Assembly (NCBI GenBank): GCA_011634665.1
Contig: WAEK01000012.1
Coordinates: 620,001-684,000, forward strand
DNA: 64,000 nt
Source of the DNA: Mortierella sp. BCC40632
Taxonomy: Eukaryota > Mortierellomycota > Mortierellomycetes > Mortierellales > Mortierellaceae
Direction: 5' to 3'
Both the position numbers and the translations under genes were made by a program. Within the stretch, counting starts at the first letter, position 1. Every line of letters starts with the position of its first letter. This document shows positions 3,501 to 35,221 of the stretch, piece after piece. Below the pieces are notes generated by a model. That model had not been told where the DNA came from, did not search any database, and saw nothing but the letters and a program-made list of their open reading frames with translations.

Positions 3501-6500
3501 GGATCTCTCCAAGGGCAATGTTTGCGCCCACATAATTCAACTTGATCTGTGCTGGAAGTGTGATGTTCTTGACAGAGACCGAGGTTTCCACGCCGATGGT
3601 CTGGGGAGAGTTCAAGTCGACGACAAAGGCACCAAAGGCAAAACGGTCCAACAATGCACCAGAGCCATAAATCCAGGAAGGAATCTTGTTGATAAAAGGA
3701 GCGACGTTGAATGGAATGACAATATCTTGGAGGATGGTAAACAGGTTTGTCGAGGACCCACCAAATACTGCGCCCGAGACCACAAGATTGGTAGCAGGGG
3801 TGATCTGGTTGTTGATGATACCCGTTACTAGGTTGGAGATCGCATTCGTCAGAGGCTCACTCGTCAACAGAGAAATATCGACATGGGCCGTAATCGACAA
3901 CTCGCCATTGTTGGGCTGAAGTTTGAACGAGGGGACGGCAATCTGGGCAAAAGCGACGGTATCAATTGCAAGGTTCACGCCCACATAGTTCAGTCGAACC
4001 TCAGCAGGAAGTGTTATGTTCTTGAGAGAGAGTGCAGCATCGATGCCAATCGTCTGGGGAGAGTTCAAGTCTACTACCAGAGATCCAATGTCGAGCCCTG
4101 CCAACATGTTCGATCCACCTGCAATAGATCCGTTCAGCATTTCACTAATCTGTTGCAAGTAGGGAGCCAAGGCGACATCGATCTTGATTTGAGACAAAAT
4201 GTGGAACAAGCGGCTTTGGTCGCCGCCAAAAACGGGATTCGAGATGACTAGGTTGGTAGGAGGTGCGACCTGACCAGGGTAAATGAAAGATCCCACCAAT
4301 CTAGAAATCTGACCAGTCACTTCGGGATTTTGTTGAATATCGACTAGGGCCTTAAAGTTGGCATTGAGTGCATTATCGGCCGAGGTCAATGTGAACGAAG
4401 GGACAGTCAAACTGGCAAGAGGAGTGGAATCGAGCCCAATCGAGGCACCGATATAGCTAATGCGAATATCGGCGGGCAGGGTCAAGTTCTTGATCTGAAT
4501 ACCTCCTTCCACGCTGATCAGTGAGGGACTGTTCAAGTCAACAACAAGGCCAGAGAGGGCAATGTTATTAAGACTGAACCCTCCTGTAGTTCCAGCAATA
4601 AAATTCCTCACATAGGTACGAGCCTGGATCAGTAGTGACTGCAAGGCAACAGGGTACTGAATCAGGGCGAACGTATGAATGTTGTCTTGAGCAGAGACAC
4701 CCAGCGTGGGTTTTGAAATGATCAAGTTATTGATAGGAGTGGTAGTCGAGTTGCTCATGAAAAAGTTGAACAGATTAGCAACATCTGTCTGGATTTCTGG
4801 TGTATCTTGAATGGTTACAGCGGCCTGAACGGCGAGAGTCAACTTCCTGTCGGCAGTGGTGATGGTGATGGATGGAACGTCCACACGGGCAAATGCGTGG
4901 TTGTCCAAGGCGAGGTCGATTCCAAAATATCCAATGTTGACGGCAGCAGCCAGTGAGACATTGCTTACAGCGATGGAGGCGCCAAGCTCAAGCACTGGGG
5001 CCTTAGTCAGATCAGCAGAGACGGCACTGAGCGTCACTGAGTTCAACAAGTTGTCTGTAGTCTCAGTGGCATTGAGACCCAGTTGGCTCAGCAAGTAGTC
5101 GACATTGGGCTTGTTCAGGACATCCTTGGATGGCACGGCGATGTTAATCTGGGACAAAATGTCAAAATAATCGGAGGGGGAAGCACCGAGACGAAGACCA
5201 TGGACTGTCACCATCTCAGGGGTGTTGCCCAACTGGCCGCTAGCGATCTCACCGACAAATGTCGCAACCTTCTGTTGAGCGTTCAAGGCATTGTTGAACA
5301 AGAGATCGATTTGAGCCTGGAGGGCGTTGGGACCAGGGAGGAGAGCCAAGTTGTTGACACCGACATCAAGGATATCGACATTGTCGAAACCACCACTGAT
5401 ACCGATGAATGGAACAGTCAGCGTAATCGGGATTGGGTTCAAGAAGGTTGCTTGGGCGCCAGCACGGAGACCGGCGTTCTGGATTGTGGTCAGGGACATA
5501 TCGCTAAGCACCAGACCAAGCTTTGATAAAATGCCGTCTGCGGTACTAGGTGGAAGTGTAGGGGCTACAGTTAAGGGAAATTGCAACAATAGTAAAAAAA
5601 GTTAGGCATAGTTGTAAATAAGGAAGCGACAAGTAAAATTAAAGATCGTGCCTAGCATCACTCGAATTTTTTTTTAAAAAAAAAAAAAACCATTTCCTCC
5701 GAAAAAAGACCTCCAAGTGGAAGGTTGACCGAAATCTCCGAAAGAGCGTTAATAACATCCGTAGGGCTGTGTCCAACAACGATGCCATTAAAACCAAGCA
5801 TACTGTCCACGGGTTGCTTAGCAATGATAGCGTTGACCAATTTGGCTACCCTGGTAGCAATCTCGGAACCGGTACCGACATTAACATTAACGCCAGCATT
5901 CATCTGAGCAGTGCCTCCATTGTAATTCAGGCCAGTATTCAATCCAATACCCGCCAGATGAGCACCATCTAATGATAGCTGAACACCAAAGTATCCAATA
6001 TTCGCTGCAACGGGCAATCCAAGGAAGACATCCAGGTTGATTCCAGCAGTGACAAGGTTGTTGGGCAGGACACTAATCGCAGCCTGATGGATCGTCAACT
6101 CGGCCAAGGCACCAACCTTGACATTCACGGCATTGTTGACAATGGTCACATTGGTGTTGGCCATAATATCTTTTAGAAGGTCACCCGTGCCGATCGAACC
6201 CGTAACAAGGCTCGAAATTGGGACCGCCAAATTAACGTGGTTCAAAGAGTTGATAGCATCCGAGGGGGAAATACCAATCGCGACATTAGAGATTCCAGCA
6301 AGGATGTCGATAGGAGAACCGGTGGTCAATCCGTTGACCAGCTTGGCGACTGTTCCAGGGATATGGGGACTAGGTTCTCTAAAGACAATACCCAAACCGA
6401 GCGACACATCGACTTGGCCTTGACCAGATCCCATGAGGTTGGCTATGAATAACTGACCCAACACGACATTGTCGAGATTGATATCCAAAGCGAAGTAAGG

Positions 6501-8342
6501 AATATCCAACTCCAATTGGAAGTTAAATGGTAACAGAAGCTTGGGAGAGATCAACAACGTGCCCCCAGGTGCAGTCGAGACAGCGATGCTCTGAAGGAAT
6601 TTCATGGTGGTGCTCGGGTCAACACCACCAAGTTTGCCGATGTCGATAGGGAAGGGGACATAAGGGCTGAGGATGGGAATGAAGATTTCCTTGATAGAGA
6701 TCGTTGGAGTACCCATCATTGGAACATTCAAATTCAATGCCGCAAAGAGGTTATTCAAGACCTGACCAACGGCTGTCTGTTCGGTAGCCGTACCAAATTT
6801 GAGGTTGCTAATATTAAGCATCTGAGTCAATGTTCCTAAAAAAGAGAAATTCAGAGGAATAGGCGTAAAGGCATATTAGACTGGCGCTCAACACCATTGC
6901 CAATATCATCTCGAGAAAGAAAATAAAATAAAAGAAAAAATACTATGCTTACCAGCAACGAAATCGTTGATCAGAGTGCCGAGTTGGAGGGACGCCTCAG
7001 GAGAATTGTTAAACTTAAAGTCAACCAGCGTGTAGGCAGTCATCTTTCCTGGGGTGAGGTTGATAGCCTGGATGCCGACGGTGACGATATGCGTGCCATT
7101 CAGACCAAGGTCGACCGAGATATAAGGAAGATCAAGAGCAATACTGAATGGGTTATCCCAGGTAAATCCAAGTCCAGCTGTCAACTGACTGCCTGACACA
7201 GCCTTAACAACCACCTTGTCAAAGGTGGGCCATTGCATCTCTGCATCAGGATTAAGGAGGCCGTCCAAGCCAAAGATTGGAGGAGGCCAGGTAATTCCTG
7301 TGGAAGGTTCAGGTGTAACAGTCGGGACGGCAGAGTCCGTCGTAGTAGGGCTTGCGGTGACTTCGGTTGTGATTGAGCTCAAAATAGCATCGATAATGGA
7401 CGAGCTGAAAGCTGGATCGCTTGTAATCGAGCTCAAGATGGCCTCAGTTGTCGTCAAGGTTGGAACTGCCTCGGTTGTTTCCAAGATTGGATCGGTCGTT
7501 GTGGTCGTGGTTGTGGTTGTGGTTGTTGTGGTCGTAGTCGTAGTCGCGATAGTTGTCGCGATCCATGGGTTGACAAGTGGTGACGACGATACTGACGAAC
7601 TAAGAGTAGCGGAGGATGATCTCTGTGGTGTGGACGAAGGCTTGGCCAGAGATGACTTGACACTGGTCGTCGTTGTTTTGGAGTTCTTTGGCTTTGGCTT
7701 TGGCTTTGGCTTAGGCTTAGGCTTAGGCTTCCGCTGTGTGGGAACAACCACTGGGGGGATTTTCAGCTTGGTGCCCGAAATTATAATGTCGTCAATAATC
7801 AATTTTGGTGGTGGACCATTTGGAGTGTCAATGCCAAACAACGAAGAGGCGAGGTTGTTGATGGAGTCCTTGAGAATGGGGTTAGCATCGCCCTCAGCAA
7901 AATCAATTTTCGCAGTAATATCGACGGGGCCTTCACCTCCAGGAAGAGTCAGGCTGTTGGTGGTAATGTTGGCAAGATTGACTCCGTCGAGGTAGAGCGA
8001 CATGCCGACCTCACCAAGAGGAAGAGGAATGGGTCCAAAGGGATTCCTGAGGTTGGCACCCACGCTCACCACGACTCGTGTTGGGGATTCAATCGTGAGG
8101 TTGGCGTTGGTAACATTGGCCGTTCCAGGAACAAGATACTTGTCTATGAGACTCTCTGGTACAGGGATCAAAGGGCCAAGGCCTCCAAGAATAATAGAAC
8201 CTGGAGAGTCAATGCCTCCTAGAGTAATCGTGGCTGAGGCTGAGGGCATGAGCATGGCGCCAAAAATGGCCAAACCCACAAACCCTGCCGCTGCCATCAG
8301 GGGCCGAAAGGGACGGCCCTTTTGCGATAAGAACGACGACAT
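559..8342 (-). CDS. Giant secreted repeat protein (LEA-2/DUF3712-like), 2506 aa, 3 exons
   Basis: Exons 8342-6953, 6835-5711 and 5564-559 join in phase (7521 nt, 2506 aa). Donor 1 is GTAAGC and donor 2 the weaker GTCTTT. The start gives a basic N-terminus, a hydrophobic stretch and an ASA-type cleavage site, so a secretory signal or signal anchor is likely. Residues about 205-220 are a Lys-Pro repeat and 264-284 a Thr run, giving an extended wall-like linker. The rest is about ten degenerate repeats of 120-130 residues. Each has a VDLNSP..IG element, a KN(I/V)TLPA..LNYVG element and a V(I/V)SG..FGGS...(F)TIL element. The alternating beta-strand pattern and repeat length suit the fungal DUF3712 / LEA type 2 sandwich family, whose role is unknown; this assignment is by resemblance only. 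The protein could be extracellular or lipid-contacting. No function is proposed. Confidence 0.85.
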
Positions 8343-18249: not shown

Positions 18250-19590
18250 TTTTTTTTTTTTTTTTTTTTTTTGTTAACAAAGACCCCACGTGGGCATGTA
18301 GAGTTTATAGAAGACCAGGGCGGCTCCGGCCGCCCTGTTGCCACTTGGTACCAAAACGGGATTACACCCGCGAATGAAAACTATCTAAACAGCCTCCAGA
18401 CACTCAACAGCCATCACCCACGTACGCATGAGTGGTCGTATTGCCAGCTCCCTACGTGGCCCCGTTGCGCTCATTCGTCGTCTATGGGCCTGAGTCCATC
18501 GCTAACACTTTTTTCCAGCTCCCTAACCTCTCCATTACGTCCAACTTTTTCTTTCCCAAGACATACGCCAACACCGTCTCGTCTGCTTCCCCATATGCCT
18601 CTCTGAGGTCTGGCTTCAACCGAAGTGGATTGTTCAAATCCGAGAAATCACCGTGGCTACGTTGGTGTCCTCCGTCACCGTTGCGTCTCTCAGCGCGTTT
18701 GCTCACCGCGGTGATTCCTATAGACTTTTCCCATTCCACTGTGGTCTCACACCTTTGACCCCAAATCTGCTTTCTACCATACTCCTCAATGGCCTCAAAG
18801 AACCGTGTCGCCATATACTTCGCTGTCTTGGTTGACGTCCTGTGCATCTGCTTCCACTTTTGGACCACCACGTCTACAACCAATCCCTGGTATGCTTCCC
18901 TAATCGTGTGTGGCCTGGTCACCTCTTCTTCCTCCTCCTGTTCTCTCTCGCGCTCCCCCGGACGGATGTCCTTGATGCCTTCAAAGATACCCTCCAATGA
19001 GTCCCACAAGTCTTCCTCATTCCTCTCCCTGAATCCCGGCTTCTTCGAATGGTCCGATCTTCCTGCTTTCCTCCTTCCTTGCTCTACCCATGCCTTCAAC
19101 TCCCTCCTGTACTGCGTACGTCCATACTCCTCGACCTTCTCTACTTCTCCTTTCCAATGCTCTCTCCTTGCTCCTTCACTGTTGCCTTGCATTCCCAAAC
19201 GTGCCTCGTCGTCTCTGTCTCTTCTCTACAGACCCTGCACTTGTCATCCTCGTAGAGTTCTGGGTGGCGCCTCTTCATTTCCGTCAGAGTTGGAAGCATC
19301 CCATGGAGTTTCTTGATCCCTGTGCGCCCTCCTCTTGCAGTCCCCCCTCGCTGGTATACAGACTTCTCGGTGGGTTCTTCTCGTGAAGTATATCCAGTGT
19401 GGCGCTCCATTCTACACGTCTCCAATCTTGGATGTTTTCCTTTGTTCTGTTTTGCCGTACCCAGTGTTGATGCATTCGTGACGCCGACTGCAGCTTCAAT
19501 ACCTGTCGCACATCGTCCTCCACTATTTGTCCAAGAAGGGTTGCCCTGCAGCCGTATCCCTCCTGGACCCTTTCTGGCAGAACCCAAATG
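18250..19590 (-). mobile_element. 5'-truncated LINE insertion (copy A)
   Basis: Poly-T 18250-18272 is the poly-A tail of a minus-strand insert of about 1.34 kb. The 18-mer TTGTCCTAACACTTGTCC occurs immediately outside both ends, at 18232-18249 and 19591-19608, which is a target-site duplication expected from target-primed reverse transcription. The pre-insertion site would be a short tandem of a 12-bp unit. The 3' UTR (18273-18481) resembles another truncated tail starting at 20060. Confidence 0.85.
18482..19590 (-). pseudogene. 3' part of LINE ORF2 with zinc knuckle, frame-broken
   Basis: Three overlapping frames read on from one another: 19590 to about 19290, then to about 19150, then to the stop at 18482. 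The middle piece contains KLHGMLPTLTEMKRRHPELY followed by a C-x2-C-x8-H-x4-C knuckle (CRVC...HVWEC). This is the usual arrangement after the reverse transcriptase/RNase H region of L1-type LINEs. The tail is a charged, Glu/Arg-rich domain of about 230 residues. At least two frame breaks and the missing 5' part make it non-functional. Family placement rests on this knuckle pattern only. Confidence 0.65.
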
Positions 19591-19750: not shown

Positions 19751-20160
19751 TTTTTTTTTTTTTTTTTTTAATCCGCAGTCTGTTTCTGCTGGAAATGCCA
19801 TGTAAGCAAAAGACTAAAAAAAAAAGAAACTAAGTTAACCCTGGCCACCTACGACTCTCGACATTTTTTTTTTTTTTTTTTTTTTAGCAATATCGGCCGC
19901 GTTAGGGGTTTTGTTGTCGGCGTGTGACCGTCCCTTTTTTTTTTTTTTATAACAATCTGTTTCTGCTGGAAAGTCGGCGTGCACCCGTCCCACGAGCTGC
20001 GGACGCAGCCAACTAGTTCTCAAAAACTACACTACCTTAATTTTTTTTTTTTTTTTTTTGTTAACGAGGGCCCCCATGTGGGCATGTAGAGTTTATGGAA
20101 TACCGGGGCCCCTGCCCCGTCGTCACTTGGGCCATATTAGGAGACCTGATACTTAAAAAA
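19751..20160. repeat. Nested poly-A-tailed retrotransposon ends
   Basis: Four T-runs (19751-19769, 19864-19885, 19935-19948, 20041-20059), each followed by a piece of LINE-like 3' UTR in minus orientation. The block after 19885 matches LINE copy B's 3' UTR; the block after 20059 matches copy A's. The phrase CTGTTTCTGCTGGAAA occurs after both 19769 and 19948. The stretch is a stack of very short, 5'-truncated tails. Confidence 0.65.
19925..19972 (-). mobile_element. 48-bp poly-A-tailed insert with 9-bp duplication
   Basis: GTCGGCGTG is repeated at 19916-19924 and 19973-19981. Removing the 48 bases between and one copy restores colinearity with the homologous LINE-B 3' UTR at 17716 onward. The insert contains a T14 run, so it is a minimal retroposed tail inside another tail. 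Confidence 0.6.
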
Positions 20161-20362: not shown

Positions 20363-20428
20363 GTTGGTTCCTTTCCTTTTTGACTTTTTTTTGCATAAAG
20401 TACCATTCGAACGATCTTCAACTTGTCA

Positions 20429-20553
20429 GGACAAAGCTAAACTTCGGGACTCCCGAACGTTAGTTATCGTTCGGGACTGTCATTTTGCCACTTAAAATTC
20501 GGGACCCACAACCTCTTAAAATTCGGGATTGCGGTCGCTTAAAATTCGGGCTG
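20429..20553 (+). repeat. Left terminal inverted repeat of the MULE (125 bp)
   Basis: Matches the reverse complement of 34869-34992 nearly base for base. Visible differences are a C/T at position 4 and one extra T in a T-run. It carries three TTAAAATTCGGG-type repeats plus two TTCGGGA/TCCCGAA inverted pairs near the outer end; a related ATAAAATTCGGG copy continues just inside. Confidence 0.9.
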
Positions 20554-22520
20554 CCACGTCATAAAATTCGGGATTGTAAACTTCGGGAGCAATTTACATC
20601 TTTCGTGTCTACGTGTTCTTGCTTTCGTTATTTTTTTTTTTACGCGGGTTTCCTGCGATGCTCTGGCTGTCAGTGCGATGTTGTGCACTCCCAGGGTGAT
20701 AGTGCAGGTCCCAGGTAACGATTATGGGCTCTCAAACAAAAAAAAGTAACGGACAAAAAAAAAACAAACAAAAACAAAAAATAAATAAATAAATAAAAAA
20801 AAGATCATCAATCTTTTTGACCTACCACAACCACCCGCCCTGTCACATCCACCCGCCTAGCCACAACCACTTCCAAGAAAAAAGATGACCGCTATCGAGA
20901 TCAACGAGTCTGCCCCTGTTAGGGCTTATGACTACCAGAAGCTGTATGGCATGTCAGCAAAGATCTTCTATTCCAAGAAGTGGGCTCCTGGTCGACAGTC
21001 GTTCCAAGTGGCTCTGCTTGATTCAACCACTGTCGATCCTGCCGACGTTATGACAGACACGGCGATAAAGGATGCACCCACCATCCCGGACAACCTCGCA
21101 GTCAACAAGGCCTACATGCTACTCGGGGAAACGCAGAACAGAGCGCACCTCAAGTTCGCTTGCTTTTTGGTACTGTCGATGTCGCTGGGCTTGCAGCGTT
21201 ACAACGCGCCAATCATGCTCTGGACACCATCGAAGAAATGCAAGCCCTGATTGCTTGGCTCAAGAACAACCAAGAGAACCCTAGAACTGGCAAATTTTGT
21301 CGTCAGCTTTTGGAATTAATCCCCAAAAAAAAAAAAAACCCAATGTCGTTCAGGTTCACTTCGTTTTACAAGCATTCCAAGAGCCTCACGATGCACCAAG
21401 TTTCATTTTTCCGCCCAGGTGTGTGGCTCGGAGACGAGCAGATCGATACCATCCTCCACACCCTGGAAAAAAGCACGAGGGTACAAGCAAGTCCAAGTTC
21501 CTCATTCTGCCGCTAGAACTAGTACGAGCCCATGTCGACGCTATTGAGTGCAAGAGATCTGTAACCGTTGCCTGGGAAGAAGATCGCCGCAAGGTTATGC
21601 TCGACTTGCAAGACTATGCGGATGCCAACCCGGGCTGTAGTGCCAAGGCGTTCACAGTTCTAAACACTGTTAACCATTGGGCCGTTTTCGGTTTTGACCT
21701 TGCGCTCAAGAGACTTCTTTTCGGTGATTCATTGGACCGTGGACGCCTCCGCCGTGCGCGCCCAAGCTGGCTCGATGCTGCAAGACACTTGCTTCAATCC
21801 TGCTGCATTGGAGATCGACGCATCCGCTCCGAAGAGTGGAATTTTGAACCGGTTAGATTCCCAGTCTCGCAACAAACCGATAGCAGCTCTTGCGGCATTA
21901 TAGCGCTTAATGCTATTGAGCACTACGTGCAACCGTCAGTAGAGCGATGGACAAAAAAAGCGAAGCGACTTCCATCGACTGAAGTACTTAATGTACGCAA
22001 CATCAGTCTACCGCCCAGTAAGTTTTTGCTAGCAACCATTCACAAATTCATCCCCTATGTCTGCAAAATAATAAAAAAAAAAAAAAAAGTCTCCATACGC
22101 CAGATGCTGACACAAAATGGATTCTGTAGGCTACTTTCATCAAAAGTACCCCCAGGGAAAAGTCACGCCCAAGAATAAGGACTCGGTCACCGAGGAGTCT
22201 CATGAAAAAAAGAAGAACTTGTCGAGAAGAGCAAAGTTAAAGGGGAAAAATTAAACACTGGAGAAGAGGCCGCCGAAGAAGAACGCCAAGAGGTGCGTGA
22301 GGATGAACTCAGCACTTCCGAAAAGTCGCTTGAAAAGGAGGAAAGAATAGCCAAGAGTGATAAAAGCAAGCGCTGTAGAGGAGACCATCGAAGAGGAACG
22401 TCAAGAGACGAATGACGATCGATCAAATCTGACTCGGAGTATTCCGAGTCAGAACATGGCAACACAGAGACGCATGATACTCTCGCGAAGGTAGGCACTT
22501 TTTTTTTTTAATTCGCGTTT

Positions 22521-22555
<35 letters not shown>

Positions 22556-22832
22556 AGAAAGCTCAGGGCCAATGATCGACAGGACAACAGAGCATGTTAG
22601 TCTTAGTTCAAAGCTTCTTACCTTCAACTGATCTCTTCCACAAAATAGGACGGAATAAATGGTGACGAGGAGTATCCGTGGATAAACGATCAGTTCGTTG
22701 ACATTGACCATGCTCTTAAAGTCATTGGTGAATGGGCACTCAAGCGAGGCAACATACTTCGCAAAGGGAGCTCTAAGAGGTCTTTAAATTACAGTATGTC
22801 GACTTCTGGTACTCGCTGCAGGGTGTGTGGAT

Positions 22833-23091
22833 TGTTCGCCTTGGGATCTATGGCGAGCAGCCTACGCTAGAGGAGCAGTGCCTGAGGCACGTGCGCCTCA
22901 CAGTACTTACATTAGAGTTAGCTTCCTTTCTCTCAGGAGGCATGAATAAAAAAAACCCAACGTCCCTGGGCCAAGTGGCCAGGCATGTCTTTTTCTCACC
23001 GATTCTTATTCTTCCCTTTGCTGACCCCTCTATTGTCACTATGTCTATCCATGTCGAGGCGTCCTTTTAGGGTAAGTTCAATTATATCACA
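22833..23091 (+). repeat. 5' LTR of the gypsy element
   Basis: 259 bp, identical to 29510-29768 by eye, with TG...CA termini. It contains GAATAAAAAAAAC as a possible poly(A) signal. Confidence 0.95.
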
Positions 23092-23805
23092 TTTTTTTTC
23101 GGTGAAGAAGAATTGTCTGGACGTAATGGTCCAAGGACGGGGAATACTCCCGGAAAGATGTTCCCAATGTGGATCATGCGACTCATGCAACTGTGCAAGA
23201 GTACGCCCAGTCTTACTACAGACAATGAATAACTTGAAGGGTTGTGTACCCGAGTCACTACAGAAAAAGATCATGAGGTTAAAAGAACTGACCAATCACG
23301 AAGTGACACATGAAATTGCATGAATGGGGCATTCGACTGAAATGGGCGAATCAGAGGAGGCCATGGTTGCATGAATGCGCGGCCTCATCTGTCTCCTCAT
23401 TCGCATAAAAGTAACCCGTCTGCTCATGGTGAAAGGAAAGAAAAACATTTTATTCCATCTTTTCCCTTGTCACTACAACACACAAACACCTCCCTCATTC
23501 CCCCACCATGGCCCCCTCACACGATCGAGCAGTCGTTCATCGCTACGAGCATCGTCCCCAACGGCTCGTCCAGCAACACCAGAAGATAGGGATCGTTCGC
23601 CGAGCTGCGATATGGGCTTAATAGGTCACCCCCATGACTGTCCTGGTAGTCATCGGGTGGATCGTCTGTATAATGAGGAAGCTGATACCACGGCTATGAC
23701 AGAACCACATATCACATACAACAGCCCCACGCCACAAGCCGTTCCTGCGAAACAACCGCCGGCTCCAACCATGCCGTCACTTGGCAGACAAACCTTCCAT
23801 CACTA

Positions 23806-25929
23806 GTGGATGATATGCCCCCGACTGGGTATGTGTCGGCAGAAACAGTGGAGTTCCTGGGAAGAGTAAACGAGCAGAAAGCTGTTCTCCAGCGACAGAT
23901 TGAAGAGTGGGCGACTTATGCCCGTACGCTGGGCAACAGCCCTGATCCAGCAATCTTTCAAGTAGCAGTGAATCATCTCACCAAATTGCATACTCTGCTC
24001 GAAGAAAGAGAATACATGCACTTGGATCATTTGCGCTGGTTGCAACTGGTGGCCGCGTATAACAAGTCGAGGAGACATCAACACTTCCCGTAGTGTGTCA
24101 AGATAAGACAAAAAAAAAAAAAAAAAAAATATAATATAACATAAAATAAAAAGATGAAGTGTACTAGCGATAACGCTAAAAAGTATCAAATGTATCCGAA
24201 GGGATAATTGGATATGAGAGACGCTCTATGCAATAAGTGATAAAAGATATGTATACCAGACTAAGAGTACTGTCATCATTATATTTTGGTCGACTATGCG
24301 ACGTTTCAGACTTACTTGTCATGGTACCATGTCTCGTATGTCACAAAATATATTGAACGTGCTGACTGTAGGAAAAAAAAAAAAAAAAAAAAAAAAAACA
24401 ACAACAACAACATTTGACGCTCCTGCGAAGCACTTCCTGAAATCATCAATACTCCTCAACGTCCGATGTCATCCCCAGTCTCTGCCATTCCTGAACCTGT
24501 TCAATCAAGGGCTAATGAGCCAACGGAGAATTTGAACGTCCCCTCTTCCCCTTCGTTCAGTGAATGGGATATGGAGGTGGATAGACACCAAACCAACCTT
24601 GGTGGTGGAACCGCAAACGAAGGTCTTTCGCAAGGACCACGCCTCAATATAGTCAAACACGACTCTGCGACTGAGATAGCTCGCCTCAAAGACGCTGTCA
24701 AGTCACTTGGCGAGAGGCTGAGCAATCTGTACTCCAACGACGGGTACCAAGAGGGCCAAGCGAGACAAGATCTAGATGTCATGATTGCCGTGACTGAAAA
24801 AAGACTATGAAAAAGACCAAAATGATCCTCAAGAAGTTGCAAGATATTGCTGCAGACATTGCATCAGTCGAAGACAGTCCAAAATCGCAGACAGTCGCAG
24901 TGTTGGACAACATTCCCAAGCGTGTGGCTAGATACGACGGAAAGAAAATGACGGCCAGAACCTTCTTAAGCCAATTTTACCGTCTCGCTTACGGCCCACC
25001 TGGGCGAGGAACGATTTGAGCGACAATGTGAGCGACTCATGGTGTCCTGCATCGAGGTGGAGCACTTTGCCGTCCAGTTCCAGGAAGGTATTAAGCCATA
25101 TCCATCCGGCACTAGAGGATGGGAAACCTGCCGTCAAGTCTTCGTAAATGCCTGTTTGACACAAGATCAACGAGATGAAGAAGTGGAACGTCTAACCAAG
25201 ATCGGAATGCTTGAACGAGAGACATATCAGAACTTTGCAATCCGTATTGAAAGAGACTTGCATGTTTACGGTGTAAAGGATGACAATGATATTATCCTCA
25301 GTCAACTGGAGAAAGCCATTGGTCCCAATGCCTACAATATCATGCTGACTCGTTATAGCAGCTTCGACCCGAATGCAGCATCCTTCCAGTCTCTATCCTC
25401 ATTGTTAACTCAATGTAAGAGACTACGCGGTCCTGAAGGATCCGATGTCACCAAGATCTACGATGATCCACCCGCTGAAGGAAAGGGCAACGGCCAACCC
25501 TCATCCGTCAAACGCACGACGAGATCTCGAATGAACAACAATCGTTTTACCCCATTCCAGAAAAATAGGAGCTCTCCTAACCAATCGGGTAACAAAGGAA
25601 ATGGCTCATCGCTGTTTTGTGCTAAGTGTGGCGATAACTCGTCACATATAACGAAGGATCACAAGGAATGTACTTACAGACCTTGCCTCAAGATTGGTCA
25701 CGTTGAAAGTGAATGCCGAATGAAACAAAGGCACGCCGAAGGCAACAAAATTGGTATGCAATCTGTCAAAGAAGTAATTGCTAGTCTCAATGTTAAGACT
25801 TACACTGACCAAAATCTACTATGCTCTAAACCTCAGGTCATTAGTCAATCCTACTCGGACAGCAATATGACCCCCTTGGTCAGACACCGTTTGAACGAAG
25901 ATTCCTTCAATCTGTCAGGAAGGGTTTAA
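23806..25929 (+). pseudogene. gypsy gag region, frame-broken
   Basis: Pieces at 23806-24093, 24466-24810, 24807-25019 and 25039-25929 read as a helical capsid-like protein (for example VERLTKIGMLERETYQNFA) followed by a basic stretch. A Cys-rich knuckle follows: CAKCGDNSSH, then CLKIGHVESEC at about 25617-25711. Gaps coincide with A-runs (24107-24129, 24373-24398). The knuckle differs from a canonical CX2CX4HX4C (the second unit has lost a Cys), so nucleic-acid binding may be impaired. Confidence 0.7.
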
Positions 25930-26101
25930 AAGAAGAATAGCTCTTCGGCAACGAATAAAAAATAAAAAGAATGCCAGTTCTTTTTACTCTACCTTCAGAG
26001 AACATTCCTGACCTTGCTGCACAAGAGTGTGAAGACCCTAATGATCTTGAAAACTATTAAGGAAAAAATACTCAGCTTACTATGGACCTCCTGAAATTAA
26101 G

Positions 26102-26563
26102 TTGTCAGCATTTGCAATGCGTGATGATAATGCAGAACAGCGTATTGTTATTACCATTGAATTTGAGAAGTGTCAGTACAATGCACTGATCGATACTGGT
26201 GCTACTGTATCCTGTATAAGGCCAGATATCGTGGAAAAGCATGGGAAGGACATTCGGTCCATGAAAGGAACGATTACACTAGCAGATGAAGATACTACAA
26301 TAGAAAGGATCGGTCAAACAGAACCTATTGAGATCCATTACCAATCATGTATAGTGTTCTCTCCATTCGAAGTAGTGAAGCAAAAGTACCCATTCACAAT
26401 CGGCATGGACTTGTTCCATCGTATTGGTCTTGGTTTGACTGGACTACCCAATCCTGGTTTGAATGCCTCAGTCCTACCAGAACCGGAGCCGGATCAGCGT
26501 CCTTCGCTCATTCCATCTGAACGACCTGAAGAAGAAAGTCAACCGAGCTTTTCAGAATGCTAA
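26102..26563 (+). pseudogene. gypsy aspartic protease region
   Basis: Contains the retropepsin active-site signature NALIDTGATVSCI near residue 30 and, about 70 residues on, a hydrophobic stretch ending TIGMDLFHRIGLGL, typical of Ty3/gypsy proteases. It is the N-terminal part of Pol, separated from reverse transcriptase by frame breaks at 26564-26853. Confidence 0.75.
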
Positions 26564-26853
26564 GAAGGCTTTCTTACAGTCAATCAAAGACGTGATCGAA
26601 AAGAATACGCAAATTCCTAAGTCGAGTCACTGTCCCATTCCTGAAATGAAGGTATACCTTCCTGTGTCAAAGGGAACGGTCATCTTCAGACGGCCTAGAC
26701 CATTTGCTCAAAAGCAATTGTCCATTTTGACGAAGCTGTCGAGAAGTGGAAAAAGGACGATGTAATTACAGTCGCCCCTGTTGGTAATGTCCACAATAAT
26801 ACACTAACTCTTGCAGCTAAAAAGATCTGAAGGGTAACAAGACTCTTTGGAGA

Positions 26854-27960
26854 GTGTGTCTAGATCCACGACCACTCAATAAAGAAATACCAGATGATAA
26901 CTATCCTCTACCTTTAATATCTGACATCATTAACAAGTTGGCAGGTAATGCAATCTACTCGACCATTGATCTTTCTCAGGCGTACCATCGTCTACCAGTA
27001 CATGAAGAGGATCAACCTTTGACTGCATTTATGCACAGAGGTACGCAATACATGTTCAAGAAAGCTCCATTTGGGTTAAAACCGCTTTCCAGCATATTTC
27101 AACGAGGAATGGCTCGTATACTTGGCGATCTTCCGTTCGTCTGCAACTTCATTGATGACATCGTGATTTTCTCAAAGAACAGAGAAGAACACAGTGAGCA
27201 TGTGCAGATTGTGCTTGACAGGTTAAACAAAGCCAAGCTTATTGTGAATCCCGATAAGTGTCATTTCTACAGTACGCAAAATCTCATTGCTCGGGTTTGT
27301 GATTGGACTCCATGGGAGGAGTGTGGACCCTACTAAGTTTGTGAATATCGAACATTGGGCACCTCCAACCACGGAAAGCAAATCCAGTCATATCTCGGGA
27401 CGTTCAATTTCTTCCGCGAGTATATCCCTTTATTCAGTTCCGTTGCAGCACCGTTAGATGCGTTAAGACATCGAACCGACACGTTCACGTTGGACGCTGA
27501 GCAGTTGGAAGCATTTGAGACACTGAAGAAACTTCTATCAGCGGCTCCTGTGCTTGCTTTTTGCAGACTTTACTCTACCATTCTATGTGGCAACTGACGC
27601 ATCGAATGTGGGTATTGGAGTGGTACTTTATCAATTACCTGATGGGCCAAAAAAATCCAAAGAACATCCGATACATATCATTCATGGCGAGATCCCTTCA
27701 AGAAAGAGAAAAAAGAAAATATTCTGCGACAGGGAAAGAGCTGCTAGCGATCGTGTTTTGCGCTCAATAAGTTCCACTATTACCTTTGGGGCAGACACTT
27801 TGATCTCTACACTGATCACCGAGCCCTTGTATTCCTTCATTCGCAGCAAGACATGAATTCCATGATGGTCAATTGGCAAGACACGATCTTGAACTATAAC
27901 TTTACTGTTCACTATCGGCCTGGTATTCTAAACATTTTGCCTGATGCATTATCTCGTATC
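26854..27960 (+). pseudogene. gypsy reverse transcriptase and RNase H, frame-broken
   Basis: 26854-27336 holds RT core motifs: CLDPRPLNKEI, YSTIDLSQAYHRLPV, FGLKPLSSIFQRGM, and the catalytic box as FIDDIVIFS, with Phe where Tyr is usual. The frame then shifts. FNFFREYIPLFSSVAAPL (27400-27460) is the thumb/connection. RNase H follows in yet other frames: a catalytic-Asp segment VATDASNVGIGVVL near 27588, a KELLAIV-like stretch near 27738, then DTILNYNFTVHYRPG near 27880. At least four breaks make it inactive as read. Confidence 0.8.
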
Positions 27961-29469
27961 TTCCCTGATAAATTCCGGAAGGTTACTCCAGCTTCACTGC
28001 CTGCTATTCTTGCTTACGTGCATATCTTGCAAAATGAAGACACCGAGCGTACAATCGTTATGGAAAGTGATCGACAAGATGTACTCCATAGGACTCATGG
28101 TATGGGTCATATTGGTACTATTGCTATGGTGAACGCCATTCATAGCGAGGGTCAGACTTGGCCTCACTTGACAAAAAGATTGTTCTGATTTTATTAAAAG
28201 ATGTCGGGAATGTCAACGTACAAATATCGTTCGAAAAGGATACCATCCTTTGAAGGCAATCCATGCAAACCTGCCTGGCGATCACATTGCCATCGATCTG
28301 ACTGGTCCGTTCACAACGTCTACAAAAGGCAATGCGTACCTGATGGTTGTTGTGGATGTGTGCACCAGGTTTGTCTTCCTTGAGCCTTTACCGAACAAAA
28401 AGGTATCACCGTAGCAGAAAAGCTCTTCAAGCTGTTCTGCACTATTGGTTTCCCCGAGAGTTTTACAATCAGACAATGGTCGTGAATTTGTCAATGAAGC
28501 TATACGTACCATGACAACTCAAATGAATGTCGATCAACGTCTCATCACGCCGTATCATCCAAGAGCGAACGGAGTAGCAGAGAGCCATGTTAAAATAGCC
28601 AATAACATGGTGCGGAAGCATATCCAAGAGCGAAGCTCCACATGGGACTCTCACATACCATTCATCCAAATGTCAATGAACACGCGAGTTGTGTCTTTAC
28701 ACTCGTCATCACCTTTCTCACTCTTCTTTGCAAGAAAGGCGAATGGATTCAGCAACTACTTGAATGACAAAGAGCAATTGATGTCCCAAGAAGAGCTGCT
28801 CGAACGACTCGAGTATATGAACAAAATAGTATTCCCTGCTATCTCAGGTAAAGCCAAAGCTACACAGGAAAAAATGATAGAACGGTTCAACCGAACGGTA
28901 CTTCACAGCGAGTTCCCGGATGGTGCTAAGGTAATGGTCCTTGACCCTATCCAAGGAGACAAGCTCACCCCTCGGTACGAAGGTCCCTACACTGTTTCCG
29001 CAAAACGGCACAGGGAGCATATGTGTTGAAAGATGGAACGGAGGAAGTTCATCATAGGCAATATGCGCCGTCACAACTGAAGCTGGTTTTGGATGACCTT
29101 GACAGTGACCCTGCGTACGAGATAGAAACCATTCTCGAACATGAACCTCACCCAACTATTCCTGGCAAGCTGCAATATTTTGTTAAATGGAAAGGCTTTA
29201 CTGAAGACTATAATACATGGGAACCTGAGGAGTCCTTTGTGGAACGAACATGTCTCAAGGAATACTGGGACAAGCAGAAAGCGGCACTATCTATGGAGGC
29301 CACTCCTAAGAAAAAACTACCGCTAGGCGTTCCAGTGGCAAAGCTCCGAATAAAAAGTTCACCCCTGCGAGTCGTGTGCAACCAATCCGTGCGCGTGCTG
29401 CACGCAAACGGGACAAAAAATTTTTTTTTTTCTCCACCGACTTCTCACCATTTGATCCCGCGTCGTTAA
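27961..29469 (+). pseudogene. gypsy integrase with C-terminal chromodomain, frame-broken
   Basis: The zinc-binding part is split between HGMGHIGTIAMVNAI (about 28096) and the C-x2-C in another frame near 28205. The DDE core appears as AIDLTGPF, QSDNGREFVNEAI (about 28468) and a Glu in HPRANGVAESHVK (about 28557). After a break near 29010, residues at about 29137-29280 form a chromodomain (LQYFVKWKGFTEDYNTWEPE). The aromatic residues F/Y, W and Y/W are retained, marking the element as a chromovirus that may target marked chromatin. Confidence 0.8.
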
Positions 29470-29509
29470 TACCTACGAACTCATGCTCTTCGTTCTCCAT
29501 AAGGGGGGT

Positions 29510-29768
29510 TGTTCGCCTTGGGATCTATGGCGAGCAGCCTACGCTAGAGGAGCAGTGCCTGAGGCACGTGCGCCTCACAGTACTTACATTAGAGTTAGCT
29601 TCCTTTCTCTCAGGAGGCATGAATAAAAAAAACCCAACGTCCCTGGGCCAAGTGGCCAGGCATGTCTTTTTCTCACCGATTCTTATTCTTCCCTTTGCTG
29701 ACCCCTCTATTGTCACTATGTCTATCCATGTCGAGGCGTCCTTTTAGGGTAAGTTCAATTATATCACA
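29510..29768 (+). repeat. 3' LTR of the gypsy element
   Basis: 259 bp, identical to the 5' LTR, preceded by the purine tract and followed by the TGGAT duplication. Confidence 0.95.
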
Positions 29769-31469
29769 TGGATCAATTGCCGTGGACTAATGCAACCTCT
29801 TGCTCCCTTCTCTCCAGGGCAACTTGAATGTTCTAGGGCAGGGAAATGTGCTCCTGCGAAGGCTATCGACCCCAGAAAGCGACGCGACAGAGGATCCGAA
29901 CGATGTGGTTGCAAGTTTATGATCCAGCTGGTTCACGAAGGCTCGTTCACAGGGCCACTCTCTGTTGACAAGGTCAGGACTCACCCTGACGCCAGGCCAG
30001 AGGATGATGGCCATTGCCATCCTTCGGATCGACAAGCAAACGATCACAGCCGACAGGCACGGGCACTGAACGATGACCACAAAGATGAGATTCGGCGAAA
30101 TGCAACTAACAAAGCAGGCATGGCTGCAACCATGAATCTCAAAAAAGAACTTTTCCTGACAAAGTTTTCGATCGCAAAAGGGTTCAATACGTGTACAGAA
30201 ATGCTTGTGATGAGATATTGGATCAGGTTCGAACTCAAGCTGGGCTCAACGAGGCTCAAGCCGTCCTTGAACTGTTACTCGCAAAGCGGCGGCAAGATGG
30301 TGCGTGGTATGTCGCATGGGATCATGATAACGAGAACCGACTAACCCGGCTCTTCTGGATGAGTCCTTCACAGAGACTATTGTACCGAAGGTATGTGTTA
30401 GCAGTGTATCAGTACCGGGTTCTCATCGAACATTCGACACCGTGCTAGAGCCATGTAAAAAATTTTCGAATCGAATATTCGACGAGAAACAATTATTTCA
30501 GTACCAATAGAGCATTTTACATTTTGCAAAGACGGAATCTAATACGTTCATAATTCATCACACATACACACACTCAAGATACTACGATGTTGTTTGGAAT
30601 GACAGCACCTTCAATTCAAACCGGTTCAGGTTCTACCTTAACGCTACCGTCGTCGTTGACTGTGATGGCAAAACCCGCCTAACAGCTGTTGCTTTTAATC
30701 CAGCAAGAAACGACTGAGAGCTATACTTGGATCCTCGAACACCTCATTATTGCAGGCAATAACCAACGCCCAACGGTTATCATGGTCGACGAAGCTAGAG
30801 CTATGGAAGCCGCCATTTTGTCAGAGTTGCCCGATACTACTCTCATCAATTGCCTCTGGCATATTGAAGAGAATCTCAAGAAACATTGTCCAAGGGCTCG
30901 GCGACCAGAAGTGATGAAGATGTTCAGGAGAGCGCTAGCAAGTATTACTCCTGACGAGTTTCAAGGTGCATGGGACCTTTTGAAGAACCTGGCTGGAAGC
31001 AGTGGCCAACTTAAGGATCACCTCAAGAGGCTTCTCGAGAGACGCAAGAACTGGGCACGCGCTTTTGTGGGTTACCACTTTACAGCCGGCGCCAAGACTA
31101 CACAGAGGGTGGAGAAGATGCACGACCTCGTGAAAAAAAGACCTTGATACTAGATCCTCATTAGACCAGTGTCTTGCTGCGGCTGTCGAACGTGAACACA
31201 GTGAGTTCCTCAGGCGTGAGACGCTCCTGTACAAAAGGAGTATTATCCCAAGGCTACACTCCAAACACGCTGCTGAAGAATTTAAGGCAGTAGTTGATGA
31301 GAACTTTGAGTTCCTCGGAGATTTTGCCTGCTTCTCAATGATGGACGAGATCGCACTGTCCTACTTCTATGATGCGCGAGTTACTGATCTTGAAAGTCTT
31401 GAGGTAACGATTGGACATTTAATCTCAAAATCAAAAATGAGTACCATTCTGGAGTCTAAAAAAGTCTAA

Positions 31470-31503
<34 letters not shown>

Positions 31504-31567
31504 AAAGGATCGTCCAGTTGAGCTAGAGGAGCACAAGAAAGGTAGTACTGACAGTGAAATCACTGGG

Positions 31568-31747
31568 AACAGCGACAATGATGACAACAGTCTTGACAGC
31601 AGCGACAACGATGACAACAGTCTTGACAGCAGAGACAACGATAACAGCAGTCTTGACAGCAGCGACAATGATGAGAGCAGCCTTTACAACAACGACAATG
31701 ATGGCAGCAGTCTTAAAAGCAACGGCAGTGATGACGGCAGTCTTGAC
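31568..31747 (+). repeat. Six 30-bp tandem units coding an acidic decapeptide
   Basis: Units of 30 bp encode variants of NSDNDDNSLD within exon 6 of the transposase gene. The repeat length is a multiple of three, so copy-number change keeps the frame. The antisense frame here (31523-31825) is a shadow. Confidence 0.85.
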
Positions 31748-32678
31748 ACCAGCGGCAAGAACAAAGACGATGGAGGCGCCAACTGCAACAAGAATAACGA
31801 TTGCGAGAGCGATGAGGAAGATCATGGAGCATGTGACAAGTCCCTCTCAACAGCTCCGTGAGCATGCACAGAGGGTTATCCTAGCTACTCTAGGCAGAGA
31901 TAATGTCACGTCTGCCTATCATGTTGAGTGGCGCAAGAAAAAGTCGACAGCAGCTCCCTCTTCCTTTTGAAAGATGGGGAGCTACTTCTGTTGCTGTCTG
32001 CGCCTTCAGAAGGTTGGGATTGTCTGTCGCCTTTTTCAAGGTCATGAGAGAGACTCCTGAGGCGAGGTACCATGTCAGTCTTCTTCCTCAGAGGTGGTTT
32101 AAGGAGGATATGCAGAGTGACTCGATCGACCACCTCAGAGACCGCTCGTTTATCGGTTATGATGACGAGCAAGGCGATAGAGAGGATGCTGGGGAACCAG
32201 GCGCCAACTTTATGCAATGTCTGGAAAATATTTCGCCGACAAAGATCCAGGATATCTCAATGAGAAACCTGGAGCAAGTCAAGGATGAAAGCAGGCGCCA
32301 TTTATTGAAGCGCCAGGCCAACGCATTCATAGACGGAATAGACACGGTGTCTGCGGGTGATTCTGAGATGGTCTCCGGGTGGATTTCTGGGTTGGAAGAC
32401 AAGTACGATGCACACAAGCGCGGTGTCGTGCCTGTGAAAGACCCAAAAATTGCTACACCCAAAGTAGGAGGTCGGCCACGCTCTAAGAGACTTAAGTCAG
32501 TGTATGAGGTCCAGAGCGAACGGGCAGCCAGAAAAAATAGAAGAGATAGTCCTGATCAAGAAGCTTAAGTCCTGTTCTTTGTCCTGCCCTTGCCCTCTGT
32601 TGTGGATCACAACATTTTTCTTGGCTAAGTCGATAAATAGGAACCAAAATAGAGAGCCAGATGAGACGTTTATAGGAC

Positions 32679-32758
32679 GTCTGCAGCGAGAGCTGCAGAC
32701 AGGACCATTTTTATTCCCCTGGCGGGCGAAGAAGAAGGGCCAGTATAAATACTGGCCC
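32679..32758. promoter_or_regulatory. Two perfect palindromes after the transposase stop; one contains TATAAATA
   Basis: GTCTGCAGC-GAGA-GCTGCAGAC (32679-32700) has 9-bp arms and a GNRA-like loop. GGGCCAGTAT-AA-ATACTGGCCC (32737-32758) has 10-bp arms and contains TATAAATA. AATAAA follows at about 32769. They could mark the transposase 3' end, a promoter for the downstream gene, or both; no direct evidence decides. Confidence 0.5.
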
Positions 32759-32936
32759 CTAGCCCTTGAATAAACACACACACCAATCTCACCGACTTCT
32801 CTGACCCTACCCTCAAAATATATCACCCTCAATCAAAGACACGGCTAGTCTTGTTAATCCACATAATTCATCTCTCTCTCTTGTCGAAGATAACTTTAAT
32901 AAAAGAACTTATTGTCTCGTAACGTATCAGGTACCC

Positions 32937-32938
<2 letters not shown>

Positions 32939-32994
<56 letters not shown>
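32939..32994. repeat. 56-nt poly-T run
   Basis: The longest homopolymer in the window, between the transposase 3' region and the hairpin minisatellite. It could be a retroposed tail on the minus strand, but no flanking duplication was seen. Confidence 0.9.
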
Positions 32995-33070
32995 CGATGA
33001 TGGGTCCAGCTTCCACGCTGCTTCACTCTAGACACGCATGGGCCGCCCTTCCCAGACCTTTACGTTCTTG

Positions 33071-33510
33071 GCGCATTCAATGCTTCAATGCGGCCTTGTT
33101 CTTTTTTCCGCATTCAATGCTTCAATGCGGCCTTGTTCTTTCCGCATTCAATGCTTCAATGCGGCCTTTGTTCTTTTTCCGCATTCAATGCGACTTTGTG
33201 CTTCACGCATTCAATGCTTCAATGCGGCCTTGTTCTTTCCGCATTCAATGCTTCAATGCGACCCTTGCTCCTCCCGTATTCAATGTCTCAATGCGACCCA
33301 TGCCCCTATTCAATGTGGTTTTTATGCTTCCCGCATTCAATGTCTCAATGCGACCCATGCCCCTATTCAATGTGGTTTTTATGCTTCCCGCATTCAATGC
33401 CTCAATGTGGCTTTTTTTGCTTCCCGTATTCAATGTCTCAATGCGAGGTTGCCCCCTATTCAATGCTTCAATGTGGTTTTGTTCTTCCCTGCACTCAATG
33501 CCTCAATACA
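33071..33510 (+). repeat. Minisatellite of hairpin units (about 14 copies)
   Basis: Degenerate units of about 22-40 bp built around GCATTCAATGCTTCAATGC. In most, CGCATT pairs with AATGCG across a 9-nt loop; spacers are T/C-rich (CTTGTTCTTTC). Several arms vary on both sides. It lies just upstream of the second MULE gene. The long frames crossing it (from 32997) are a by-product of the repeat. Confidence 0.85.
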
Positions 33511-33682
33511 GCACATACTCCTCCCATCTCATCAGTCTTTTCTTAAGTCGAAGGCTTAAATACAAGATATTCAGCTCCTTGGTTCACTACACACACTCAC
33601 TCACTCACATTCTCTTTTTTCACACACTCTCCCCCAACTTATCTCTCGCCCTTCCTCTACTTCTCTTTCTCTCTCTCAAAAT

Positions 33683-34567
33683 ATGCCAAAAGGTCTCCCA
33701 GTGCTCCTTTCATAAATGTGCAAAAAATCTAAATGATGATAACAGGGAGAACTTTTGTACTTCTGAGGAATCTCATTGGAGAGCATGCCACACCAATGAA
33801 CCAGCCAAGTTCCCTTGTCCCTTTACGAATAAGACAGTTGAAATCCATCGAAATTCGGAGAAAGACTACAAGTTCACCTGCGTGTGCGAAAAATCATTTA
33901 TCCTTAACGCAGGGTCTGTAAGGCGTCACTATGAATCTTGTACAGTAGCCAAACGGCTGGCTCTCCAGGCTGCTTCAACAGTTCCAGATACACAGGCTGC
34001 TCTTGCAACCCCAGAAACACAGGTTGCACCAGCAGCGGCCCAGCCTCACCAAGCATCCAGCGAACTTCCAAGCCCATCTCAGGCTCAAGATAAGAGTCCT
34101 TCCCGAGAGACAAGTCCTGCAGCGATATCGTCACCAGGGACCATTGTTTTCCGGGATGGTATTCTTGACTGCTTCCTTAATAAATGCTGAGAATGAGAAT
34201 AACTCAATTATTGCACTGGAAGGTAGATACTAACAATAATCTACTTTAGGTGTTACGGAAACTTTAGATGATGTTCTGTGGTATGTCCGCCGAATGGACG
34301 AAAGACAAGAGCGAATAGAGGACTACCAGTTGTATTTGGGGCGTACTTTGGAACAATTAGTTGGATTTGTGAAAGGGAACCCAGCAGGCGCAAGTCCACG
34401 GACGCCTTGTGAGTTAACCATTTCGTCCATCATAGTGCAATCAGGATGAGTGTTGACCATTAGGCTAATGTGCTACTTTCTAGTAAGTCTCGTTCATAAT
34501 TATAGGCGTCCTACACCCATATCCGGCCCCACCGAAGGCAAGCGGTAGTGAAACAACAAGAAGATAG
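33683..34567 (+). CDS. Cys/His-rich coiled-coil protein inside the MULE
   Basis: Exons 33683-34158, 34250-34408 and 34506-34567 join in phase (donors GTATTC and GTGAGT; the first intron has CTAAC before its TAG). The ATG at 33683 is one base out of frame with the rest, at an AAAA run, so either one base is miscounted or the start differs. The N-terminal 90 residues hold Cys/His pairs (CSFHKC, CPF, CVC...HYESC), consistent with one or two C2HC-type fingers. Then comes an Ala/Gln/Pro/Ser-rich linker and a charged helix (DERQERIEDYQLYLGRTLEQL) likely to form a coiled coil. I do not recognise the family. Its place within the TIRs suggests an accessory protein of the element, possibly DNA-binding; it does not look like plant MURB. 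Confidence 0.55.
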
Positions 34568-34868
34568 GGGAACAGCTGAGATATTTAAACAAGTGTAGCA
34601 AAAAAAAAAAAAAAAAAAACAACAACAACAACAACACTGTGAAGAATAAACCAAAAAAGAGAAGACTAAAAAGCCATCAACCGATGGGTTTAGAAGCGAA
34701 AAGATAGGCTAGGGAGGTTGGAGAGACGCAGGTTAAAAAAAACTAGCAACCCATTGATGGACTCTGTTAGGCGAGGCGAGCCACAGGAGGAGCTGAGAAA
34801 GGTATTAGTGGTGCGAGTTACCGACCCTCGATCCCGAAGATTAAGGTTCCCGAATTTTAAATTTTGGC

Positions 34869-34992
34869 CAGCCCGAATTTTAAGCGACCGCAATCCCGAA
34901 TTTTAAGAGGTTGTGGGTCCCGAATTTTAAGTGGCAAATGACAGTCCCGAACGATAACTAACGTTCGGGAGTCCCGAAGTTTAGCTTTATCC
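34869..34992 (-). repeat. Right terminal inverted repeat of the MULE (124 bp)
   Basis: Inverted counterpart of the left TIR. It has the same order of CCCGAATTTTAA units and the same outer CCCGAACG...CGTTCGGG pair. The 10-bp TSD follows directly. Confidence 0.9.
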
Positions 34993-35221
34993 CAACTTGT
35001 CATGGTAGCGCCAGGAGGATCCTGGGCATCAAGGTGAGTAATTTTCTCCTTTTTTTTTGGCCATACTGTTGATGATTCTGTAGAACATCCTTCTCCCCTC
35101 AAAGAAGTCCCTTATACCAAAGGAGGAGATAGCCTTAGACATGATGTGGCCCACTCATGAATATGACTACCTAGTCACTCTTATGCATGCCAGGTAATTG
35201 GAAGCCTTTTTTTTTTGGATG

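Follow-up and report, generated by a model that had tools for sequence, protein, structure and literature searches.

A three-gene MULE family in Mortierella sp. BCC40632 and a copy carrying a nested gypsy retrotransposon

Mutator-like elements (MULEs) are moved by a DDE cut-and-paste transposase that recognises their terminal inverted repeats (TIRs), and their short derivatives can be mobilised in trans. Long TIRs are usual in MULEs, although not universal, and a FAR1/WRKY-like part and a SWIM motif are frequent. SWIM and Ulp1-like parts are also carried by the Zisupton/KDZ transposons. The element considered here lies in a 64,000-nucleotide stretch of DNA from the fungus Mortierella sp. BCC40632, referred to as the window, which corresponds to C12:620001-684000 (contig WAEK01000012.1) of a genome of 49.9 Mb in 62 contigs; coordinates are window positions unless a contig is named. 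The locus is very probably a copy of a young, multi-copy MULE family of 7.5-7.7 kb with three genes (for an Ulp1-like SUMO/ubiquitin-like protease, a DDE transposase with an RNase-H core and a zinc-finger protein) that was secondarily hit by a gypsy retrotransposon. This family is called A, and B, C and D denote other families of the same genome.

Among described systems, compared here through excerpts of the papers cited, the Arabidopsis KI-MULE/VANDAL elements with KIU or VANC share with the window element a multi-gene make-up and an Ulp1-type protease domain (PMC13317346, PMC5735166, PMC10398659, PMC2528002). Some VANDALs carry Ulp1 (PMC13317346). The targets of VANC are tandem repeats with family-specific motifs in the noncoding DNA of the element itself, and they differ between related elements, as do the arrays of families A, B and C (PMC5735166, PMC10398659). 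KI-MULEs proper are described as elements without TIRs in which protease and transposase have opposite directions, whereas family A has TIRs. In melon, some of the MULEs that carry Ulp1 have TIRs, and melon and rice show both orientations, as found here (PMC2528002).

In fungi, MULE-Mucorales and MULE-Ag (Dupeyron et al. 2019, PMC6446971) are likewise MULE transposases in Mucoromycota. MULE-Mucorales is listed there with a 10-bp target site duplication (TSD) and a SWIM motif, but with one open reading frame (ORF) and a 40-bp TIR, in contrast to the TIRs of about 125 bp and the three genes of family A. Mutyl (Table 1 of the same paper) resembles the window element as a fungal MULE with a 9-10-bp TSD, a C2H2 finger and a second ORF, and differs in its 22-bp TIR, in the antisense direction of the second ORF and in having no protease listed. 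In that table no row mentions a protease, nor does the word appear in the main text. The MULEs of Rhizophagus irregularis are expressed in another early-diverging fungus, one whose transposases are among the relatives found here; the words protease and Ulp are missing from the main text of the paper (PMC8647823). Fungal transposons with a TET/JBP dioxygenase (PMC12730594) also combine a fungal DNA transposon with a gene possibly acting on silencing, although the accessory enzyme differs from the Ulp1-like protease. Relative to the MULE descriptions in these excerpts, where the known Ulp1 carriers are plant elements, the combination of three genes and private arrays is new. Family A moreover adds a young family with multiple copies to a lineage for which the table of PMC6446971 lists a single-ORF MULE group.

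Borders, copies and the nested retrotransposon

In the window element the TIR arms match in two blocks, one of 57 nt with a single mismatch (position 4, C vs T) and a perfect one of 70 nt, the two being shifted relative to each other by a 1-base indel. Outside them stands CAACTTGTCA, identical on the left and the right at 10/10 positions. A preliminary description of this DNA, made from the sequence alone, had claimed TIRs of about 124 bp with some two differences and a flanking 10-bp duplication, and both claims hold, as does the position of the protease, the transposase, the zinc-finger gene and the gypsy element between the TIRs, which is borne out by the ORF and Pfam content. The left TIR holds repeats of a AAATTCGGG-type motif (23-bp period, 3.7 copies in the sibling L037). 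The 30-base left flank, searched in the same genome with up to 3 mismatches, had no match besides the window locus.

A search of the genome with the left TIR gave at least 41 matches (40 of 57 candidates scored), so the TIR pair is not confined to the window. Eight further end-to-end elements of family A were found (L031 to L038; 7,534-7,685 bp), and all nine complete copies have perfect TSDs, no two alike, eight being of 10 bp and one of 9 bp. Another eight elements are short (L039-L045 and L049; 691-736 bp) and built from the two ends only, approximately the left 374 bp and the right 393 bp of a full element, and a perfect 9-10-bp TSD flanks seven of them. Taken together, 16 of the 17 both-ended elements (the window, eight full-length and eight short) show a perfect, mutually different direct repeat of 9-10 bp. 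The preliminary description had proposed this search as a check, and its outcome, other copies with differing TSDs of 9-10 bp, supports the proposal. The TSD counts cover 17 elements, that is, 32 of the at least 41 TIR matches; the other 9 matches, at 8 places, lie outside them. Two of these places are the copies on contigs C10 and C11, recognised through their proteins, whose left ends were not found in the short stretches examined. A fragment of family A stands at the end of C35.

Between aligned pairs of complete copies, the substitution difference is 0.41-1.15%, with many of the substitutions in bins that hold repeats. Six coding segments (1,357 codons, some ends overlapping) contain 18 single-base variants among the nine copies: 7 synonymous, 10 nonsynonymous and 1 stop. 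The differing flanks and TSDs argue against the copies being assembly duplicates and, judged from these comparisons, family A is a young, recently active, multi-copy family. The transposase would bind the repeated TIR motifs, excise the element and join it to a staggered 9-10-bp target, and the end-only elements of about 0.7 kb would have been moved in trans. A decayed relative of family A, approximately 73-86% identical in pieces, is also found at L050 (1395-4227), about 4 kb from a family-A end.

The apparent length of 14.6 kb is a likely annotation trap, as it arises from a retrotransposon nested in a 7.6-kb element. The two long terminal repeats (LTRs) of this guest are identical (259/259), and the ORF pieces between them match RVP, RVT_1 (E=8e-28), rve (E=2e-5, yet below the rve cut-off) and the chromodomain (Chromo, E=3.5e-12). 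LTRs, reverse transcriptase, integrase match, chromodomain and a 5-bp TSD are the features of a Ty3/gypsy chromovirus. The TSD, TGGAT, is duplicated in the window copy only; in each of the eight other complete copies gypsy is missing and the site is uninterrupted, with a small adjacent indel in L034. The guest measures 6,936 bp, and the window MULE without it 7,623 bp. An LTR search of the genome gave at least 41 matches, two being the window's own (40 of 96 candidates scored), and 26 of them, these two included, are at least 95% identical.

From the comparison with its siblings, gypsy entered the first transposase exon later and is not part of the MULE family. Its entry would have doubled the length of the element and, as it splits this exon, the window copy is not autonomous and would be at best a passenger of its sisters. 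What had been described as a 14.6-kb MULE thus keeps its MULE identity, its exact borders and its mobility (PF10551, nine copies, nine TSDs), but loses as a separate Ty3/gypsy element the 6,936 bp that had been counted as a component of the mobile unit. The 14.6-kb composite was rejected as the unit of the family because of the 8/8 complete siblings from which gypsy is missing. It is a different proposal, and quite an unlikely one, that the composite moved once as a whole, gypsy having first entered a donor copy. The composite is still enclosed by two intact TIRs and the outer 10-bp TSD, which is compatible with either order of events, and the sequence gives no direct relative date for the two insertions. 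Against such a move stand the count of 0/8 other complete copies with gypsy, the identical LTRs, the disruption of the transposase exon by the insertion, and the incomplete copies on C10 and C11, in which the protease and transposase matches are separated by about 1.6 kb, leaving no room for gypsy.

Table 1. Features of the window element (window positions)
Feature	Position	Strand	Basis or remark
Left TSD, CAACTTGTCA	20419-20428	none	sequence reading
Left TIR	20429-20553	+	pairs with right arm
Ulp1-like (C48) cysteine protease gene	20861-22178, ATG at 20885	+	Pfam in siblings and families, alignment
Transposase exon 1, open-frame start, interrupted by gypsy	22777-22832 (including TGGAT, 22828-22832)	+	sibling comparison, frames
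Ty3/gypsy chromodomain retrotransposon, guest in the MULE	22833-29768	+	comparison with siblings, Pfam, LTRs
Gypsy 5' LTR, 259 bp	22833-23091	+	matches 3' LTR
Gypsy 3' LTR, 259 bp	29510-29768	+	matches 5' LTR
Transposase exon 1, remainder, FAR1-like region	29769-30344 (starting with second TGGAT, 29769-29773)	+	sibling comparison, frames
Transposase catalytic exon (MULE, PF10551)	30511-31460	+	Pfam, alignment
Transposase C-terminal exon with 30-bp coding repeat (31570-31758)	31499-32568	+	frames, repeat scan
Tandem-repeat array, 34-57-bp units, private to family A	33064-33507	+	about 0.2 kb upstream of zinc-finger gene
Zinc-finger gene	33684-34446, start approximate	+	frames, profile, alignment
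Right TIR	34869-34992	-	one mismatch and one 1-base indel relative to left
Right TSD, CAACTTGTCA	34993-35002	none	sequence reading

The gene trio and its integrity

The transposase matches PF10551 both in a piece of the window copy (E=4e-11) and in the exon of the sibling L033 (E=2e-19), and its catalytic residues, D (30601 on), D (30779-30805) and E (31097-31123), are invariant among families A, B and C. A transposase of the DDE type, TSDs in the 8-11-bp range and long TIRs (about 125 bp in family A) place the element among the MULEs. The FAR1-like match is weak and below cut-off (E=0.013-0.021 in siblings, about 0.01-0.02 overall), and a SWIM-like CxC...CxH motif, without a Pfam match, was read by eye in the C-terminal exon of L033. 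An alignment search that scored the best 7,991 candidates by shared words gave at least 74 relatives; the organism is named for 13 of the 74 listed, 12 being Glomeromycotina (Ambispora, Diversispora, Rhizophagus) and one a plant. This composition indirectly supports the preliminary description's mention of early-diverging fungi. Against 5.8 billion proteins, a family-A transposase exon had one match. Membership in KDZ was considered and rejected, as the transposase matches PF10551 and the Pfam scans gave no KDZ model.

The protease model PF02902 falls just under its curated cut-off in family A (sibling L037, E=6e-4) and above it in families B (7e-5) and C (1.9e-6). Among solved structures, the family-B protease matches yeast Ulp1 best (1euv, E=2e-4). 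The histidine, aspartate, glutamine and cysteine of the C48 active site are invariant across the alignment of the three families, whose proteases are 28-31% identical; in the window, the histidine lies near 21669-21695 and the cysteine near 21882-21908. In families B and C the domain is contained in one open frame.

The zinc-finger protein combines a C-x4-C...H-x4-H finger with a following C...CxC-x12-13-H-x3-4-C motif. In family A its gene appears, from the sequence only, to have a 91-bp GT-AG intron (34159-34249) and a charged second coding exon from about 34250. Ten columns are invariant in an alignment of five such proteins of this genome, and a leave-one-out profile recovered the five targets at E=1.3e-19 to 1.7e-31, versus 0.011 or more for the best of 2000 shuffles each. 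Against Pfam, the A and C versions had no match at E<=1 and the remaining ones none above cut-off, and the family-B protein, searched against 5.8 billion proteins, had no match at E<=0.001. An AlphaFold model of the window zinc-finger stretch alone had a predicted local distance difference test score (pLDDT) of 41 and was not used.

Protein searches of the genome revealed that families B and C also carry the trio of protease, transposase and zinc finger, with transposases 30-38% identical in protein to that of family A. In family B (L052, and L053 with L056) the order is zinc finger (reverse), protease and transposase. Its copy on C7 has TIRs of about 135 bp, a length of about 9.4 kb and a 9-bp TSD (CGCACCACT), and the right end of its copy on C2 adjoins other sequence, without a TSD. 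In family C (L058, L059) the transposase and the protease are on the same strand and the zinc finger, whose frame was read in L059, on the opposite one. As two other MULE families of the genome keep it, the trio is more strongly supported as a unit, and its three genes, in an order that differs by family, are real components of the element. The preliminary description had placed the three genes in one mobile unit, and their recurrence in B and C bears this out.

It is very improbable that the protease and the zinc-finger gene are instead recently captured host gene fragments, in the style of Pack-MULEs, and idle for the element. MULEs are known for gene capture, L061 on C9 holds a separate gene with this zinc-finger domain, and in no complete family-A copy is the protease covered by a single open frame. 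The Ulp1-MULEs of plants have been presented as a case of transduplication (PMC2528002). On the other side, Pack-MULEs hold host-gene fragments without a conserved association, and here the same trio is kept in three diverged families, with invariant catalytic residues in the protease and an open domain in B and C. The host's canonical Ulp1 gene, located at C5:1349639-1350381, is also farther from the element proteases than these are from one another, with bit scores of 20-31 against pieces of the host gene and of 50-72 among the element proteases, a comparison that introns on the host side handicap. Recent capture of the host Ulp1 was rejected on these distances. Joint descent of the trio fits better than repeated recent capture, with only three families to judge from.

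Several further points weigh against the reading as a young three-gene family. The short element L042 has no TSD, and neither a clear TIR nor a TSD was found in the two family-C copies compared. The 7 synonymous and 10 nonsynonymous variants are too few for a test of purifying selection. The frames, above all, are often broken: among the nine complete copies, none has the whole protease in one frame, the catalytic transposase exon is open in two (L032, L033) and the zinc-finger exon in two (L038 and the window), and 87 of 156 indel events lie outside homopolymers of 4 or more (69 within them). These frames and the indels outside homopolymers favour the proposal that all copies of family A are dead relics broken by real mutations, which is nevertheless unlikely. 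Substitutions hardly separate the copies, the small indels that break the frames vary from one copy to the next, nine perfect TSD sets remain, and open stretches over exon segments are present in different copies. As the indels differ between copies, assembly error is suggested, and the broken frames are likely due to errors of the long-read assembly, with the 87 events outside homopolymers leaving room for real decay.

Across L031-L038 and window 20429-34992, many small indels accompany few coding substitutions, the pattern of uncorrected long-read error. The same cause may have disrupted further frames of the assembly.

Tandem arrays and possible self-protection

In each of the three families a tandem array is found upstream of the zinc-finger gene, with different units. 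Family B has 20-bp units in about 31 copies, its nearest array being some 0.27 kb before the zinc-finger start, and family C has 17-bp and 20-bp arrays about 0.08 kb before it. All 57 occurrences of the A motif in the genome fall inside 11 family-A copies, and all 8 of the C motif inside the two C copies. For the B motif 410 occurrences were counted and, among the 100 listed, 91 are within 1.5 kb of a zinc-finger match. Outside the elements, 91,416 bp of window and flanking DNA contained no array with a period of at least 14 and a score of at least 100. Many units of the family-A array (33064-33295) also hold a CGCATT...AATGCG inverted repeat, which might fold into a hairpin or serve as a symmetric binding site.

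This arrangement recalls the VANDALs of Arabidopsis, whose VANC binds private tandem motifs to escape silencing. By analogy, the zinc-finger protein would most likely recognise the repeats of its own element and, together with the protease, regulate or protect it. A doubtful extension of this idea is that these elements form a fungal three-gene MULE lineage with self-protection, parallel to the VANDALs, in which the zinc-finger protein would bind the private array and the protease would strip a SUMO or ubiquitin-like tag from silencing factors, so that each family would free only itself. If the protein and the array did evolve together, every family would be expected to have an array, but one of its own. 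Some observations speak against the arrays having this role: 9 of the 100 listed B-motif places (C1:1623-2104) lie close to the end of a contig, with no zinc-finger match within 1.5 kb, the upstream region of family D (L060) has just a pyrimidine-rich 20-bp repeat, and the zinc-finger gene in L061 is without an array. Further tandem repeats inside the elements, namely the 30-bp coding repeat of family A and 24- and 138-bp repeats in family C, also show that arrays occur beyond the zinc-finger promoter. The trio, kept in three fungal families together with private arrays, suggests that non-plant transposons, too, have retained accessory genes for coping with host control, and the zinc-finger protein and the array of its own family are a directly testable protein-DNA pairing.

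Two loci with related zinc-finger genes were also found. The gene in L061 (817-2103, - strand), standing apart on C9, encodes the zinc-finger domain of the MULE protein (profile E=9e-27). The surrounding 8-kb stretch, with neighbouring genes read from the ORF list, showed no tandem array; the gene is possibly a domesticated copy or a source gene. L060 holds two inverted, divergent zinc-finger gene copies of family D (1884-3569, - strand, and 6391-8126, + strand), about 3 kb apart and with a weak protease match between them, an arrangement suggesting a fold-back or rearranged MULE.

Left neighbourhood of the element

Just to the left of the MULE, the window contains two direct repeats (18253-18321 and 20041-20109) that are 83% identical and about 1.8 kb apart. 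An ORF between them weakly matches zf-RVT (E=0.0055, below cut-off), and the stretch is possibly a decayed non-LTR element.

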